Part shown: piece by piece, positions 290 to 6,436 of the stretch
How positions within the stretch are numbered: the first letter of the stretch is position 1
Layout: every line of letters begins with the position of its first letter
Source of the DNA: Sulfurimonas hongkongensis
GTDB taxonomy: Bacteria > Campylobacterota > Campylobacteria > Campylobacterales > Sulfurimonadaceae
Direction: 5' to 3'
Length of the DNA: 64,000 bases
Assembly: GCF_000445475.1 (NCBI RefSeq)
Contig: NZ_AUPZ01000007.1
Coordinates: 1 to 64,000 of the forward strand
Notes under the pieces: model-generated
Told to the model about the DNA's origin: nothing
The model's database searches: none
The model's input: only the letters and a program-made list of their open reading frames with translations
Position numbers and translations under genes: made by a program

Positions 290-934
290 TTATATACTAT
301 TTAACTCATTTTTTAATGCTTGTATTAATTTACCTTTAATATTTACTATTTTTGAATTTGAGTGAGTATCAAATTTTTGAATTTCAGCATTAGCATTATG
401 CTTATTAAGAAGGTCAGGTATCGACTCTGCTATTTCAATAAATTTATTATTTACTCTACTTAATTCATTATGAAGTTCTTCCAATATAGATAGAGTCTCT
501 TCATTTGTTGTGAGTTTCAATTGGTTTAATTGTGAAAAAAGTTCAGAGGTTTGTTTTTTTATTTTTGTATCAATATCTCTTGCTGTATTATTAAATTCAA
601 TTGTGTATTTTTTCTTTTTTTCTTCGGTATTACTTTCATAAAACTTCATCATAATAGTTCCTAGTTCATCAAAAAACAAATTAATTCCTAGCGCATTGTA
701 AGTATCAAGTTTATCCATAAATTCATAATATAATTTTTGTTTTGTTTCATACTTATATTTTCTCTTTTGTAAATCTAAGCTATATTCTTGTTTTATCTTT
801 TCTATTTCATTTGTAAGTGATTGATTGTCTTCTAGTAAAGCTCTATTTTTCCCTTTTTCTTTAAAATAAGATATTAAATAACCTGTGAACAGCCCTATAA
901 ATACTAACAATATATGTATAAATTCATATTTCAA
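290..934 (-). CDS. Membrane-anchored coiled-coil protein, unknown (integron cassette)
   Basis: The 214-residue protein starts with one transmembrane segment (about residues 6-23). A long, charged, probably alpha-helical cytoplasmic part follows, with likely coiled coil around residues 32-60 and 140-175. The start is TTG with AAGGA about eight bases upstream. The gene starts 20-30 bases inside the cassette boundary at 954-960, the usual spacing for cassette genes. No family or catalytic motif is recognised. The layout of one membrane anchor plus a helical domain, with a second small membrane protein downstream, resembles membrane-acting effector pairs. That comparison is only a guess from architecture. 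Confidence 0.6.
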   Translation of the reverse strand: MKYEFIHILLVFIGLFTGYLISYFKEKGKNRALLEDNQSLTNEIEKIKQEYSLDLQKRKYKYETKQKLYYEFMDKLDTYNALGINLFFDELGTIMMKFYESNTEEKKKKYTIEFNNTARDIDTKIKKQTSELFSQLNQLKLTTNEETLSILEELHNELSRVNNKFIEIAESIPDLLNKHNANAEIQKFDTHSNSKIVNIKGKLIQALKNELNSI

Positions 935-953
935 CTTTATTTCCTTTACTGTT

Positions 954-1022
954 TGCTAACGTTTAAAATGAGCCGATAAATTCTCCGCAGGGTAATTTAT
1001 TGGCTCCACTGACTTGTTATGT
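954..1022 (-). other. attC: attC-like recombination site, compact type
   Basis: The roughly 69-base site lies directly behind the SIR2-like gene. On the minus strand it begins with ACATAAC, overlapping the stop codon of that gene, and ends with GTTAGCA. Between these heptamers is an imperfect inverted repeat with arms near 974-985 and 995-1006 (GAGCCGATAAATT against AATTTATTGGCTC) and a small loop. Arm sequence and size are very close to the site at 2052-2118. Confidence 0.7.
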
Positions 1023-2030
1023 GTTTTTGCTATTTTCAACATCTTGCAATTCCTGATACCAATTCCAAAGTTCATCAAAATTGGAGTCTTTTGGCAGAGG
1101 ATTGTTTTCAATAAATTTCGCCATCCAATATTGATTATAATATGCCTCACCTGTTCTTCTTGGATGATTTGCAATAAATGAATCATAAAAATTTTTATGG
1201 AACTCTCTGTGATGTGTATGAATAAAGGGACTCCAAACTTGTTCCAAGTCATCTTCTTCTCGAATATCAATAATCTCCGTTTGTTCCATATTCCTATCCT
1301 CAACATCACCCCATGCTTTTTTCATTAGTTCTATTGCACTTTTATCTGACTGAGGAGCACCATAACCAAAAATACTTATCATAAACGCTTTTTCTAAATA
1401 CCCTTGAAGCGTCTCCCATTGAGCTTTAATAAAGCCATCTTTGTGATAATTTTTTTCAGAAATTGGATACAGTAATCTTGTTGGTTGTAAGTCTTTCTCA
1501 CAATACTTACACTTATGACCATTAACACCTGCAAAACTATCTTCTTCACAAAATCCAACTGCAACATTTCCATGCAAAAATAATAGTTTTGGCAATTTAA
1601 AACCTTCCTTACCATTTCTATAATATGCTTGAATTAGAAATGGATCCCAGTTAAAAGTTGCAATAACATCCTTTTCTCTTAATGAAAGCAGTAAGTGATC
1701 ATAGATCGTTGGTTGTTCGGTTATTGATAAATTGTGAAAATATCTATAAACCTCTTCTTCAAGTTCTAACTGTATATCTTGCAAATCTTCGTTTTTGCAA
1801 ATTAAGTCATATATTTCTTCAAAATTGTTTGTTTCAAAGTTTAAATTTGTTTTATCGATCAAGTTCTCTAATTTCAAGGTTGATATTAAGTTATTCATTA
1901 AAGGTAACTTATTGCCATTAATGTCTCCGTTAGGAAAAGCAGCATATGAAGCACCGGCACCCAAAATAACAACATGAGGCGCAAAAATTTCAACTTGATT
2001 AATTTCTTCTTGTTTTGATACTACTCCCAT
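1017..2030 (-). CDS. SIR2-like domain protein (integron cassette, candidate defence gene)
   Basis: This 337-residue protein carries a SIR2-type Rossmann start, GAGASYAAFP, at residues 24-33. It also has FNWDP (Asn127, Asp129) and LFLHGN with a candidate catalytic His153. A Cys cluster at Cys161, Cys174 and Cys177 could hold zinc. These are features of the SIR2-like family whose bacterial members often hydrolyse NAD+ during anti-phage defence (family knowledge). Residues 200-337 are an extension that I do not recognise. The start is ATG with AAAGGG about eight bases upstream, just inside the cassette boundary at 2051-2058. The stop codon overlaps the attC at 954-1022. It stands alone as a single-gene cassette. 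NAD hydrolysis is an inference; a metabolic deacylase is less likely because the domain is divergent. Confidence 0.75.
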   Translation of the reverse strand: MGVVSKQEEINQVEIFAPHVVILGAGASYAAFPNGDINGNKLPLMNNLISTLKLENLIDKTNLNFETNNFEEIYDLICKNEDLQDIQLELEEEVYRYFHNLSITEQPTIYDHLLLSLREKDVIATFNWDPFLIQAYYRNGKEGFKLPKLLFLHGNVAVGFCEEDSFAGVNGHKCKYCEKDLQPTRLLYPISEKNYHKDGFIKAQWETLQGYLEKAFMISIFGYGAPQSDKSAIELMKKAWGDVEDRNMEQTEIIDIREEDDLEQVWSPFIHTHHREFHKNFYDSFIANHPRRTGEAYYNQYWMAKFIENNPLPKDSNFDELWNWYQELQDVENSKNT

Positions 2031-2051
2031 ATGAAAACCCTTTACTTTATC

Positions 2052-2118
2052 ACATAACGGTTGAATATAGCCAATAAATTCCGCTAGGTAATTTATTGGC
2101 TACTATGTTTTGTTATGA
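2052..2118 (-). other. attC: attC-like recombination site, compact type
   Basis: The roughly 67-base site lies behind the ATPase gene. The minus strand starts with TCATAAC, overlapping the TAA stop at 2113-2115, and ends with GTTATGT at about 2058-2052. The central inverted repeat has arms TAGCCAATAAATT and AATTTATTGGCTA around a short GC-containing loop (about 2077-2104). It shares arms with the site at 954-1022, as expected for cassettes collected by the same integrase lineage. Confidence 0.75.
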
Positions 2119-4215
2119 GTTTTGCTCAATATCAATATTACACTCTTTAATTATATAGTGTGGTATTGTCTGATACTGAAAAGGGTTTAGTTGGTATATA
2201 TAATCATTTTCTATATGAAAAGTTTCATTTACAAACTTCCTTATCACTCTATTATCGTTGTTCTCATTAAATAGAATTCTATAAATTTGAAGTTTTTCAT
2301 AATTGTTAGTAGAGTTATTATAAACTCTTTTCATTTCATCATTATTATTTACATTTTGAAAACAAGATAAATAGCAAAATTCTTCTTCAATTTTAGCTGT
2401 AATTTCTTCCGTTGCCTTTTCTATTTCTTCTTCCGTCATATTCCTATCGTCTGAACTTGATTTATAGATGGGTGTTTCTCTTTTATGAAATAAATTTGAA
2501 AGTAATTGATACCCTAAACCTTTATTATTTGTAATTTCATATAATCTTCTAAGATAAATTAATTTATTTATTTGTTCACTAAGGTTTGATATATTTTCTT
2601 CTGCTATATCTATAAAAGTCCTTATATCACTTTTTGTAATTAATTTTTCAATTAAAATACCTTCAATGTTTTCTAAATAATTAGCACTTGGATTTACTGC
2701 ATTAAATATATCAGGATGATGAAAAATTATGTCTACAATTGGTTCAAAATCATGTGTTAGCATAAGAATTGTTTTATCTCTAAAACTTTTTTCACCTCTA
2801 AATAACATTTCCATAATTGCAAATTTTTTATTTTTGTCAAACGAGGAGATTGGGTCATCAAGTATTATTAAGTCTGAATTATTTTTTAAGACTTCATACA
2901 TAAATAAAATTAATGCAAAAGCATTTTTTTCACCAAAACTTAAATGGTTTTTAGCATTGTCTATATCACTTTCTACAAAATCATTATGTATCAATTGCAT
3001 TTTATAAGAGCTATTGTTGGCATCTTCTTTTATGTCTATAAAATAGTTATATCCAGCATATTTTAAAAAAGTATTTATATCTTCTTTATGTTTTTCAATA
3101 GTTTCTTTAACTCTTCTTTTTTGTATATTTACCTTGCCTTGTAATTGTCCAGACTTTTCTAATATTTCATCTAAAGAGTTATTTATTTTTAAAATCTTTT
3201 CTTTTGTAACATCAGTATTAAGATGTGCCATATAGCTAAGGTCAATTTTAAATGTTTTAATAATTTCATCTACTTTTTCAAAATCTTTTAAAGATTGAAA
3301 CCCTAGTTTTTTTACATTTTGCAGTTTATCAATTAAGGTATTGATTTGCTCTCTAATTTCAAGTATAAAAGCTTCTTGTTCTTTTTGTAACCCATCAACA
3401 CTCTTTGATATTTCAATAATTTTATCATAAGTATCTACTGTAAAATATTCTTTTAATTTAGAAATGGTAGTTATGATTTTATTTAAATGTTCAATAAGTT
3501 TAGAATCATATTTTGTGGCAACTGCTTCAATAGTTTCTTTTTTTTCTTCAATATCCGATGAAGTACAATATGGGCAACAATCAGAAATATTTAAATAGTC
3601 TTTTCCCGTCATTTGCCATTTTAACCATTTTGTATTACTGTCATGTTGTATAAAATCTTTATAAACAGTTAACTCATTAGGAATATTTTCTACAGGATTT
3701 CCCTTTCCTACAGCTTTAAAAAAACTACTTGATTTTGCTAATCCTTTGGCTTTACCAAAACTTTCTAATAATTCATTTAAGTCATTTAACATTATTTCAA
3801 TATCTTGATTATCTTCAAATGTTTTAGATATATCTTTGATTAATTCATTTATTTCAAGCATTCCTGTTTGATAAGCTTCATCGTTTATTAAGATATCAAA
3901 ACTATTTTTTAATACTTCATTTGGCTGAAATACATATTGATTTATATAGTCCTCATTAAATATAGCTACATTATTAATCGAATCTAATCCACTTACTTCT
4001 GGATTATTTTCATCTGGGTTATCTCTATATTTAAATGGCTTGAGTTTTAATAATTCATTTGATGAGTTATTTTTATCAATTACATAATACTCGATTGCTT
4101 TAGATATTGTTGATTTTCCAGTACCATTAATTCCATATTTGATATTCAATGAATTATCAGCAATATTAATTTCTCCAGTTTCAATACTATTACATTTTTT
4201 TAATACTACATTCAT
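2113..4215 (-). CDS. AAA/ABC-type ATPase with zinc-hook CPYC motif (integron cassette, candidate defence gene)
   Basis: The protein has 700 residues. A Walker A (GINGTGKST, residues 28-36) lies close to the N-terminus. An ABC-type signature (LSFGEKNAFALILF, about 424-437) and a Walker B with D-loop (LIILDDPISSFD, about 448-460) lie in the C-terminal half. Between them is a coiled-coil region interrupted by CPYC at 214-217, a zinc-hook-like CXXC. This is the layout of the AAA_13 group, which includes RloC- and PrrC-type anticodon nucleases and several defence ATPases (family knowledge). The C-terminal part has a conserved-looking block, VIRKFVNETFHIEND, with Arg, Glu and His that could be catalytic, but I cannot confirm a nuclease site. 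It has its own cassette boundaries. Nucleotide-controlled action is likely; the target is unknown. Confidence 0.75.
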   Translation of the reverse strand: MNVVLKKCNSIETGEINIADNSLNIKYGINGTGKSTISKAIEYYVIDKNNSSNELLKLKPFKYRDNPDENNPEVSGLDSINNVAIFNEDYINQYVFQPNEVLKNSFDILINDEAYQTGMLEINELIKDISKTFEDNQDIEIMLNDLNELLESFGKAKGLAKSSSFFKAVGKGNPVENIPNELTVYKDFIQHDSNTKWLKWQMTGKDYLNISDCCPYCTSSDIEEKKETIEAVATKYDSKLIEHLNKIITTISKLKEYFTVDTYDKIIEISKSVDGLQKEQEAFILEIREQINTLIDKLQNVKKLGFQSLKDFEKVDEIIKTFKIDLSYMAHLNTDVTKEKILKINNSLDEILEKSGQLQGKVNIQKRRVKETIEKHKEDINTFLKYAGYNYFIDIKEDANNSSYKMQLIHNDFVESDIDNAKNHLSFGEKNAFALILFMYEVLKNNSDLIILDDPISSFDKNKKFAIMEMLFRGEKSFRDKTILMLTHDFEPIVDIIFHHPDIFNAVNPSANYLENIEGILIEKLITKSDIRTFIDIAEENISNLSEQINKLIYLRRLYEITNNKGLGYQLLSNLFHKRETPIYKSSSDDRNMTEEEIEKATEEITAKIEEEFCYLSCFQNVNNNDEMKRVYNNSTNNYEKLQIYRILFNENNDNRVIRKFVNETFHIENDYIYQLNPFQYQTIPHYIIKECNIDIEQNS

Positions 4216-4246
4216 TGTATTCCTTTAGTGTCTAATTTTACTATAC

Positions 4247-4366
4247 TCATAACGCAAAGCTAAGACGCGCGCCTAGCCGGGGTTGAGTAAGTTCGGGTTG
4301 TATTGAGATGGCCGAAGCCGATTAAACTAGCGTGCTCGCGCGTCGTGCTTGAGCGAATTGTTAGGC
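4247..4366 (-). other. attC: attC site, long GC-rich type
   Basis: The roughly 120-base site lies behind the dehydrogenase gene. The minus strand starts with the classical GCCTAAC (4366-4360), two bases after the stop codon, and ends with GTTATGA at about 4253-4247. The outer arms pair well: GCAAAGCTAAGACGCGCG at 4254-4271 faces CGCGCGTCGTGCTTGAGC at about 4337-4354, with one or two bulges, typical of attC. It is longer and far more GC-rich than the other two sites, so this cassette probably came from a different source. Confidence 0.85.
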
Positions 4367-4368
4367 AT

Positions 4369-5136
4369 TCAGTTTGTTGTCAATCCACCATCAACGGCCA
4401 AAATTGCTCCTGTAATCCAACGTGCTTGATCAGATGCAAGAAATACCGTTGCACCCGAAATATCATCGGGTTCGCCGATCCGGCCAAGTGGATAGATAGT
4501 TCCAATCATTTCATCGAATTTTGTTTTTCCCTCATCAGTAAGTCTGTTGATATTCGCTTGAACTAACGGGGTATTTACTGTTCCGGGAGCAATTGCATTT
4601 ACCCGTACGCCCCGTTGGCCTGCCTCATAGGCGAGGGACTTTGTGAAAGCATCCATTGCCCCTTTGCTTAATGAATATGCCGTTGACGGTCTTCCTGGCA
4701 ACATGCGGTGTGAGAAATAGGACGAAATGTTTATCACTGAACCTTTTCTGGCCGCAAGCGCATCGAACAGTTGTTGAGTTAGAATGTAAGGTGCTTTTAC
4801 ATTTAGGTTCAGATGTAAATCCAACTCTTCTTCGTTGGTTTCCGTGAATGGGTTAAATCGTGCAATACCAGCATTGTTTACTAACACATCAACTTCCGGC
4901 CATATATTGAGAATATCTTGAGTAGTTTTCTTAATAGTCGAGATATTTGATAGGTCTGCCGATAACACATGAACCTCGACATCAAATTGTGAAAGAGTTG
5001 CGGCTGATTTTTTGAGATTCTCTTCATCTCTGGCTATAAGAAAAACACTGGCATTATTTTCTGCAAATGCCTTGGCAATTCCAAAACCAATGCCATCGGT
5101 GCCGCCTGTTATGATTGTTCGTTTGTTTGATAACAT
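4369..5136 (-). CDS. Short-chain dehydrogenase/reductase (first integron cassette)
   Basis: This 255-residue classical SDR carries the NAD(P)-binding TGGTDGIGFGIA near residue 11, NNAG near 88, the active-site YSLSK (Tyr about 152, Lys about 156) and the usual C-terminal VDGG. It would oxidise or reduce an alcohol/ketone group with NAD(H) or NADP(H); the substrate cannot be told. The start is ATG with GAGAG about seven bases upstream. It is the cassette nearest attI, so it should be the one most strongly expressed from the cassette promoter and, in the usual model, the latest arrival. Its base composition is visibly more GC-rich than the flanking genes and its attC differs, both consistent with recent transfer. 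Confidence 0.9.
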   Translation of the reverse strand: MLSNKRTIITGGTDGIGFGIAKAFAENNASVFLIARDEENLKKSAATLSQFDVEVHVLSADLSNISTIKKTTQDILNIWPEVDVLVNNAGIARFNPFTETNEEELDLHLNLNVKAPYILTQQLFDALAARKGSVINISSYFSHRMLPGRPSTAYSLSKGAMDAFTKSLAYEAGQRGVRVNAIAPGTVNTPLVQANINRLTDEGKTKFDEMIGTIYPLGRIGEPDDISGATVFLASDQARWITGAILAVDGGLTTN

Positions 5137-5405: not shown

Positions 5406-5428
5406 ATTACTTAAACGAAGGATTGAAA

Positions 5429-6436
5429 ATGGAAGTTAAAAAAAAGCTATTGAATTTGGTTCGAGATAAGATCAGGTTTAAACACTATAGTTATTCAACT
5501 GAGCGAACTTATGTTCATTGGATAAAGCATTATATATTTTTTCATAATAAAAAGCATCCAATAGAGATGAGTAAAGTTGAGATAGAAGCATATTTAACAA
5601 AGTTGGCTACACAAGACAGAGTATCACCAACAACTCAAAATCAAGCTTTTAGTGCCTTGCTATTTTTATATAAAGAAGTTTTAGGAATTGATATGAGTGA
5701 GTGGAATATTCAAGCTCTTCGTGCACAAGAGAGAAAACATATACCAGTCGTTTTAACAAAAGATGAAGTTAGAAGTGTTTTACAAAATATACCTATGGAG
5801 TACAGTCTGCTTGTACATTTGATGTATGGCTGTGGGCTTAGAATGAATGAGGTTTTAAGTTTACGGATAAAAGATATAGATTTTGGCTTTAACAAAATCT
5901 ATATATGGGATTCTAAATCGTTAAAAGATAGAACTCTTCCACTGCCTTTAAAATTAAAGCAGCAACTACTTAGTCAAGTTGAGTTGGTTACAAATCTTCA
6001 TAAACAAGATCTGGGTAACGGTTACGGGAGTGTTTATATACCCTATGCATTAGAGAAAAAGTATCCAAAATCTAAGCTTGAAACAAAACTAGCAAATGCG
6101 GTTTGCGAAGCAAAAGTTTCCTGAAAGTGGCAATTTTTATTTCCCATGAAAAATATTTCAACTGACCCTAGAACTAAAGAGAAAAGACGCCACCATGTTC
6201 ATCCGCAAACTTTAGGGCGAAACATAAAAGTAGCATCTCAAAAGGCAAACCTAAACAAGCGTGTAACTACACATATTTTTAGACACTCGTATGCAACGCA
6301 TCTGCTCCAAGCGGGCATTGATTTGCGAAGCATTCAAGAACTTTTAGGTCATAAAAGCGTTGAGACGACTATGATATATACTCATGTTGTGAGCGAGATG
6401 AACAAGGCTAAAGTTATAAGCCCACTAGATTTTTAA
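5429..6436 (+). pseudogene. intI: Integron integrase IntI, interrupted by an in-frame TGA
   Basis: The reading frame is a tyrosine recombinase of about 335 residues, the usual IntI length. Part one (5429-6121) has the SAM-like N-terminal domain, TQNQAFSALLFLYKEVLG and the first catalytic Arg in LMYGCGLRMNEVLSLR. TGA at 6122-6124 then interrupts. The same frame continues with KWQFLFP, the IntI-specific patch [25 protein letters not shown] (catalytic His and Arg), [14 protein letters not shown] (His and nucleophile Tyr) and the family ending SPLDF. IntI proteins usually have Trp just before this WQ..FP motif, so TGG to TGA is the simplest explanation. Truncated protein would lack the catalytic Tyr. 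The start is ATG at 5429 with AAGGA upstream; a TTG six bases earlier is less likely. A sequencing error is possible but not suggested by anything else. Confidence 0.9.

Follow-up and report, generated by a model that had tools for sequence, protein, structure and literature searches.

What does a 700-residue ATPase carrying a zinc hook do in an integron cassette, and what does the long region behind its ATPase domain contribute? The gene lies in a window of 64,000 nucleotides, by which is meant the whole stretch of DNA analysed, from Sulfurimonas hongkongensis. The question is taken up here from the cassette and the protein motifs, through the relatives and their neighbourhoods, to the C-terminal domain and its possible action.

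The ATPase gene and its cassette

The cassette array, in order of position, contains the following features.

955-1025: attC of the SIR2-like cassette; fold z -3.4
1017-2030, minus strand: third cassette, SIR2-like protein of 337 aa; motifs GAGAS, TFNWD, LHGN and GYGAPQSD recognised by eye
2050-2118: attC of the ATPase cassette; z -6.2 for the single-stranded DNA fold, equalled by none of 200 shuffles
2113-4215, minus strand: zinc-hook ABC/AAA_13 ATPase with C-terminal helical domain, 700 aa; open reading frame, PADLOC PDC-S06, Pfam AAA_13
4247-4367: attC of the upstream SDR cassette, whose left border starts the ATPase cassette; fold z -2.0; core boxes GCCTAAC and GTTATGA
4369-5136, minus strand: first cassette, SDR oxidoreductase of 255 aa; adh_short_C2, 5.5e-59
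5423-6436, plus strand: integron integrase gene intI; TIGR02249 matches both halves; single in-frame TGA at 6122-6124

Read along the minus strand, the order is intI (on the opposite strand), SDR oxidoreductase, ATPase, SIR2-like protein and a 214-aa protein. The ATPase gene has the layout of a cassette, being a single open reading frame followed by a foldable attC and oriented away from intI. It begins with ATG, and its TAA stop falls within the R'' box of the attC. Judged from the core sites, the cassette probably measures about 2.2 kb, from about 2058 to 4252. The reading of the gene as an integron cassette, first made from sequence only, is thus borne out by the attC hairpin, and the same attC repeat recurs on two other contigs of this genome, C14 and C16. 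The window copy of the integrase is probably inactive because the in-frame TGA splits intI. No terminator was found for the ATPase cassette and promoter-like sites are no commoner than in shuffles, so that it is no more than an assumption that the integron promoter drives the gene.

The neighbouring cassettes show some features of their own. The SIR2-like protein has no match at curated cut-offs in Pfam, PADLOC or NCBIfam, and relatives of 42-48% identity occur in records of Vibrio, Stenotrophomonas and Pseudoalteromonas. The 214-aa open reading frame in fourth position (290-934, minus strand) carries a hydrophobic stretch at its N-terminus and, after it, a probable coiled coil; it has no family match in Pfam. 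On contigs C14 and C16 there are more cassettes with the same attC repeat (L116, 6245-8786, and L117, 1113-3452), in which two toxin-antitoxin-like gene pairs and a 780-aa protein of restriction or methylase type were recognised by eye.

The protein matches Pfam AAA_13 above the family cut-off (8.7e-15). Conservation was assessed with 25 non-identical homologues, with identity down to 29%, and 74 positions are invariant across them, including the ATPase motifs and three of the four residues of the hook. The motifs of the ATPase part, all on the minus strand, are as follows.

4108-4134, minus strand: Walker A, GINGTGKST, residues 28-36; G31, G33, K34 and S35 invariant (n = 25 homologues)
3565-3576, minus strand: zinc hook CPYC, residues 214-217; C214, P215 and C217 invariant in 25/25
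2929-2943, minus strand: ABC signature LSFGE, residues 425-429; L425, S426, G428 and E429 invariant
2836-2871, minus strand: Walker B and D-loop LIILDDPISSFD, residues 449-460, with Walker B as LIILDDP (449-455); L452, D453, D454, P455 and D460 invariant
2752-2754, minus strand: H-loop histidine H488; invariant in 25/25

The CPYC motif, which had been proposed as a zinc hook at the tip of a coiled coil, sits in a coiled-coil insert and is seen as CPxC in every homologue; in the AF2 model it forms a low-confidence loop with the helices of the insert on either side. The model of the full protein (mean pLDDT 82.7) combines a Rad50/SMC-like head (VIA Z ~17) with a confident C-terminal helical domain. 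Foldseek and VIA-align 2 matches to the full model cover mainly the ATPase head and include Septu PtuAB and retron PtuA. PtuA (Septu, retron Ec78), a defence protein, has a Rad50-like ATPase head too (VIA Z ~15) but works with a separate HNH nuclease, PtuB, and the window gene has no such partner.

Family, distribution and gene neighbourhoods

The PADLOC model PDLC04889 of PDC-S06, a phage defence candidate, covers residues 1-698 of the protein (E = 9.9e-271, 898 bits), with equal length and motifs. PDC-S06 gathers under one name at least 12 rather dissimilar models, the majority RloC-like. RloC-type proteins from Campylobacterota give full-length matches to other PDC-S06 models and only partial matches to PDLC04889, mainly in the part from hook to ATPase. 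In a quick tree of 55 proteins with long branches, comprising relatives of the window protein, three RloC-type groups, PrrC and PDC-S46, the 25 relatives form one clade (support 100) apart from the RloC-type groups and PrrC. PDC-S46 is the nearest neighbour in this tree, a relationship that is unsure because of the long branches. The window family is of the RloC kind, as a variant distinguished by its C-terminal domain.

The suggestion that the gene represents an undescribed stand-alone system holds in part only, as the family is already catalogued as a defence candidate under PDC-S06; its function appears to be undescribed. The literature naming PDC-S06, where examined, lists it from genome scans. 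No published test of the window subfamily was found under that name, most subscription papers being outside reach, and the accession of the E. coli relative led to no paper.

The nearest relative (82%) is from Sulfurimonas sp. OB5, of the same genus as the host, on a contig of 4,921 bp. Full-length relatives are sporadic; within the phylum, 6 of 298 genomes contain one. Plasmid records with a relative number 905, of which 619 are conjugative; WP_000350638.1 is one plasmid relative. A single enterobacterial relative, ~38% identical to the window protein, is present in 725 complete E. coli genomes out of 5,426, where a plasmid nearly always carries it. The family is thus both common and mobile, and roughly every eighth complete E. 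coli genome has a member. The E. coli copies are 95-100% identical in DNA among themselves; at least 80% of the gene is present in 556 of 740 E. coli records, while about a quarter hold it partially. These relatives are annotated just as 'AAA family ATPase' or 'hypothetical protein'.

The homologues have varied neighbours, among which restriction-modification (R-M) genes recur. In one locus (L115) hsdM, hsdS and a dual-specificity-phosphatase-like gene precede the relative and hsdR follows it; this slot between hsdS and hsdR is where prrC stands in its operon. At other loci the gene is accompanied by a pair of type II R-M genes, by a type III-like pair of methylase and helicase along with HerA and Cap4-nuclease-like genes, or by VapBC with pifC farther away. 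A cytosine methylase and Vsr were also seen ~2.6 kb from a homologue. Some homologues stand beside prophage tail genes, or beside a satellite-type primase and an integrase. The contexts found, namely plasmids, prophages, R-M loci and the integron, agree with those expected of PDC-S06.

Other neighbours were also observed. SbcCD or Mre11/Rad50-like pairs adjoin homologues in L038, L039, L041, L061 and L113, from several taxa. The 82% relative (L002) begins where a transglutaminase-like gene (1776-2411, plus strand; PF01841, 8e-13) ends, a gene absent from the window cassette. L002 is not counted as a cassette, its attC-like end folding no better than shuffles (z -0.98).

The C-terminal domain and its likeness to RloC and PrrC

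Behind the ATPase motifs lies a domain of 173 residues, which contains two conserved motifs.

2116-2634, minus strand: C-terminal all-helical domain, residues 528-700, the proposed effector; AF2 of the domain alone
2536-2550, minus strand: R556-x3-E560 (RRLYE); R556 and E560 invariant in 25/25; fits R-x3-E of PrrC/RloC
2206-2238, minus strand: K660-x2-N663-E664-x2-H667-x-E669-N670 (KFVNETFHIEN); invariant in 25/25; fits [RK]xxNxxxH of PrrC and RloC-type proteins

Modelled alone, the domain has a pLDDT of 85.3 and a pTM of 0.83 and is all helical except for a short hairpin. Its invariant residues among the 25 homologues are R556, E560, F613, K641, R646, K660, N663, E664, H667, E669, N670 and a few others. 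The sequence-only reading had pointed to Arg-Glu-His spacing in this region; R556, E560 and H667 are indeed conserved in all homologues down to 29% identity. It had named as contrary evidence a lack of such conservation, or membership in a DNA-repair group, and neither was found.

In RloC the catalytic triad is defined as Arg-x3-Glu-x36-52-His, and tRNase activity is lost when R, E or H is mutated (PMC2610378). RloC (Geobacillus kaustophilus; Campylobacter) resembles the window protein in its ABC ATPase interrupted by a zinc-hook (CxxC) coiled coil, in its C-terminal R-x3-E followed later by a conserved His, and in being encoded by a stand-alone gene that is at times found in R-M loci. It differs in the distance from E to His, 36-52 residues against 106 (E560 to H667) in the window family, so that the triad spacing does not agree, and in having R, where the window family has K, before N-x3-H. 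H577 (in LFHKR), at a spacing of 16 from E560, was ruled out as the triad histidine, as it is K in some homologues. RloC-type motifs include MRNILE; RYINRESH and RIINEFSH fit K660-x2-N663-x3-H667 with Arg in place of Lys, while RLVLHGESH of one RloC group fits it only loosely.

PrrC likewise consists of an ATPase followed by C-terminal R-x3-E and RxxNxxxH, and its motifs LRNILE and RIINLSSH parallel R-x3-E and KxxNxxxH of the window protein. However, PrrC is about half the size, lacks a zinc hook and is coupled to a linked R-M enzyme, whereas the window protein has 700 aa and CPYC, and no hsd genes adjoin it in the window. According to PMC3710099, the domains of PrrC and RloC belong to the HEPN RNases, whose motif is Rx4-6H. 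The spacing of K660-x6-H667 fits this motif, but K replaces R in 25/25 homologues and the motif itself is lacking. PDC-S46 shares the ATPase head, and its C-terminal motifs xRNxxE ... LTxxLHxK and NIHxNSFMYEP resemble YLRRxxE ... LLSNLFHKR and FHIENDYIYQL of the window family; it differs by the absence of the CxxC hook in the copies examined, and its C-terminal profile matches the window family only at E = 0.004 over 49 columns.

The agreement of motifs was compared with shuffles. The pattern fixed beforehand, R-x3-E and then [RK]x4-6H, turns up in 0.8% of shuffles when the labels of the invariant residues are permuted; with R required instead of [RK], the window family does not match. A fuller pattern including N is matched by 0.006% of shuffles, a post hoc figure since this pattern was spotted after inspection. 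A Pfam scan of 17 C-terminal domains found no family, hhalign of C-terminal profiles against PrrC and one RloC group gave no significant match, and Foldseek with the isolated domain returned nothing under E = 1. Among the rows are two HEPN proteins, Csm6 (VIA Z 3.2) and RNase L (E 3.5), with scores no better than noise. No new fold is claimed from this lack of matches.

The proposal of a PrrC/RloC-like nuclease centre is therefore supported by motifs, architecture and context, while homology of the C-terminal domain was not established by profile or fold searches. On the best reading the family is RloC-like in action, yet it is filed neither as RloC nor as HEPN.

Proposed action and alternative explanations

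A role of the window gene in defence is highly probable. The PDC-S06 match, the invariant hook, ATPase and C-terminal motifs, the motif likeness to PrrC/RloC, the Rad50/SMC-like head and the mobile and R-M contexts all argue for defence and for an RNase. The prediction of an RNase effector in the C-terminal domain is evenly poised, as the x106 spacing, K660 in place of the HEPN arginine, the non-significant hhalign result and the noise-level fold matches weigh against it. The preferred reading, equally balanced in its likelihood, is that the gene would encode a self-contained sensor and effector of abortive infection against phages, working like RloC with an RNase as effector.

On this model, the Rad50/SMC-like head and the zinc-hook coiled coil, whose fold and motifs are present, would dimerise and sense a cue of infection, probably abnormal DNA or a disabled restriction system. 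By analogy with RloC, the head may keep the C-terminal helical domain inactive until it is triggered. The domain, with R556, E560, K660, N663 and H667 at its centre, would then cleave RNA, most likely tRNA, by a metal-free reaction; translation would stop and the infected cell would abort. If the protein is such an ATPase-gated RNase, it would represent a common single-gene abortive-infection system with defined residues to mutate. A widespread plasmid-borne gene family thereby gains a testable proposal for its active site, and the window would add a Campylobacterota example of defence genes in integrons.

A tentative alternative, considered rather unlikely, keeps the ATPase in defence but gives its C-terminal domain a role other than that of an RNase: it would bind a nucleotide, a DNA end or a phage protein, or recruit a separate nuclease, for example an SbcCD-like pair close by, and the conserved polar residues would make up the binding site. 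The domain has no fold or profile match to any nuclease, the SbcCD or Mre11/Rad50-like pairs described above adjoin homologues in five loci, and small WYL-like open reading frames adjoin several homologues, all of which would suit such a role. However, most loci, the window included, have neither SbcCD nor WYL partners, the gene moves alone as a cassette, and the invariant charged residues in their R-x3-E and KxxNExxH layout suit a catalytic site better.

It is likewise somewhat doubtful, though conceivable, that the C-terminal domain constitutes a toxic RNase of a new class, having a fold of its own, whose R-E-K-N-H active site merely resembles the PrrC/RloC triad; it would be switched on by the zinc-hook Rad50-like sensor and spread by integron cassettes, plasmids and prophages.

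An enzyme attacking phage or host DNA, either a DNase or another nucleic-acid enzyme of unknown class, is quite improbable. The ATPase head is of a DNA-binding type (Rad50/SMC), Septu PtuAB and retron PtuA being among its matches, and the family is associated with R-M loci, but the invariant residues of the domain show no acidic metal-binding cluster typical of metal-dependent DNases, and the likeness of motifs points to the site of a metal-independent RNase.

Rad50 and SbcC lack the C-region that RloC has (PMC2610378). Finally, a housekeeping ATPase of DNA repair or chromosome maintenance (RecN, SbcC or Rad50 type), caught in a cassette by chance, shares the head fold and could account for the SbcCD pairs near some homologues, but is most improbable and a DNA-repair identity was rejected, given the sporadic and often mobile distribution, the conserved C-terminal domain missing from Rad50/SbcC, the lack of an adjoining Mre11/SbcD gene in the window and the match to a defence-candidate profile.

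Two minor observations concern the homologous loci. The homologues in L004, L005, L053, L057 and L059 are broken by stops or frameshifts, from either decay or sequencing error. Open reading frames of 90-105 aa, absent from the window, adjoin homologues in L039 (7678-7971), L038 (7684-7995), L113 (8459-8767), L059 (6701-6973) and L051 (9340-9654); they possibly encode an accessory protein or a regulator, and the one in L039 gives a weak WYL match (E 0.0017).
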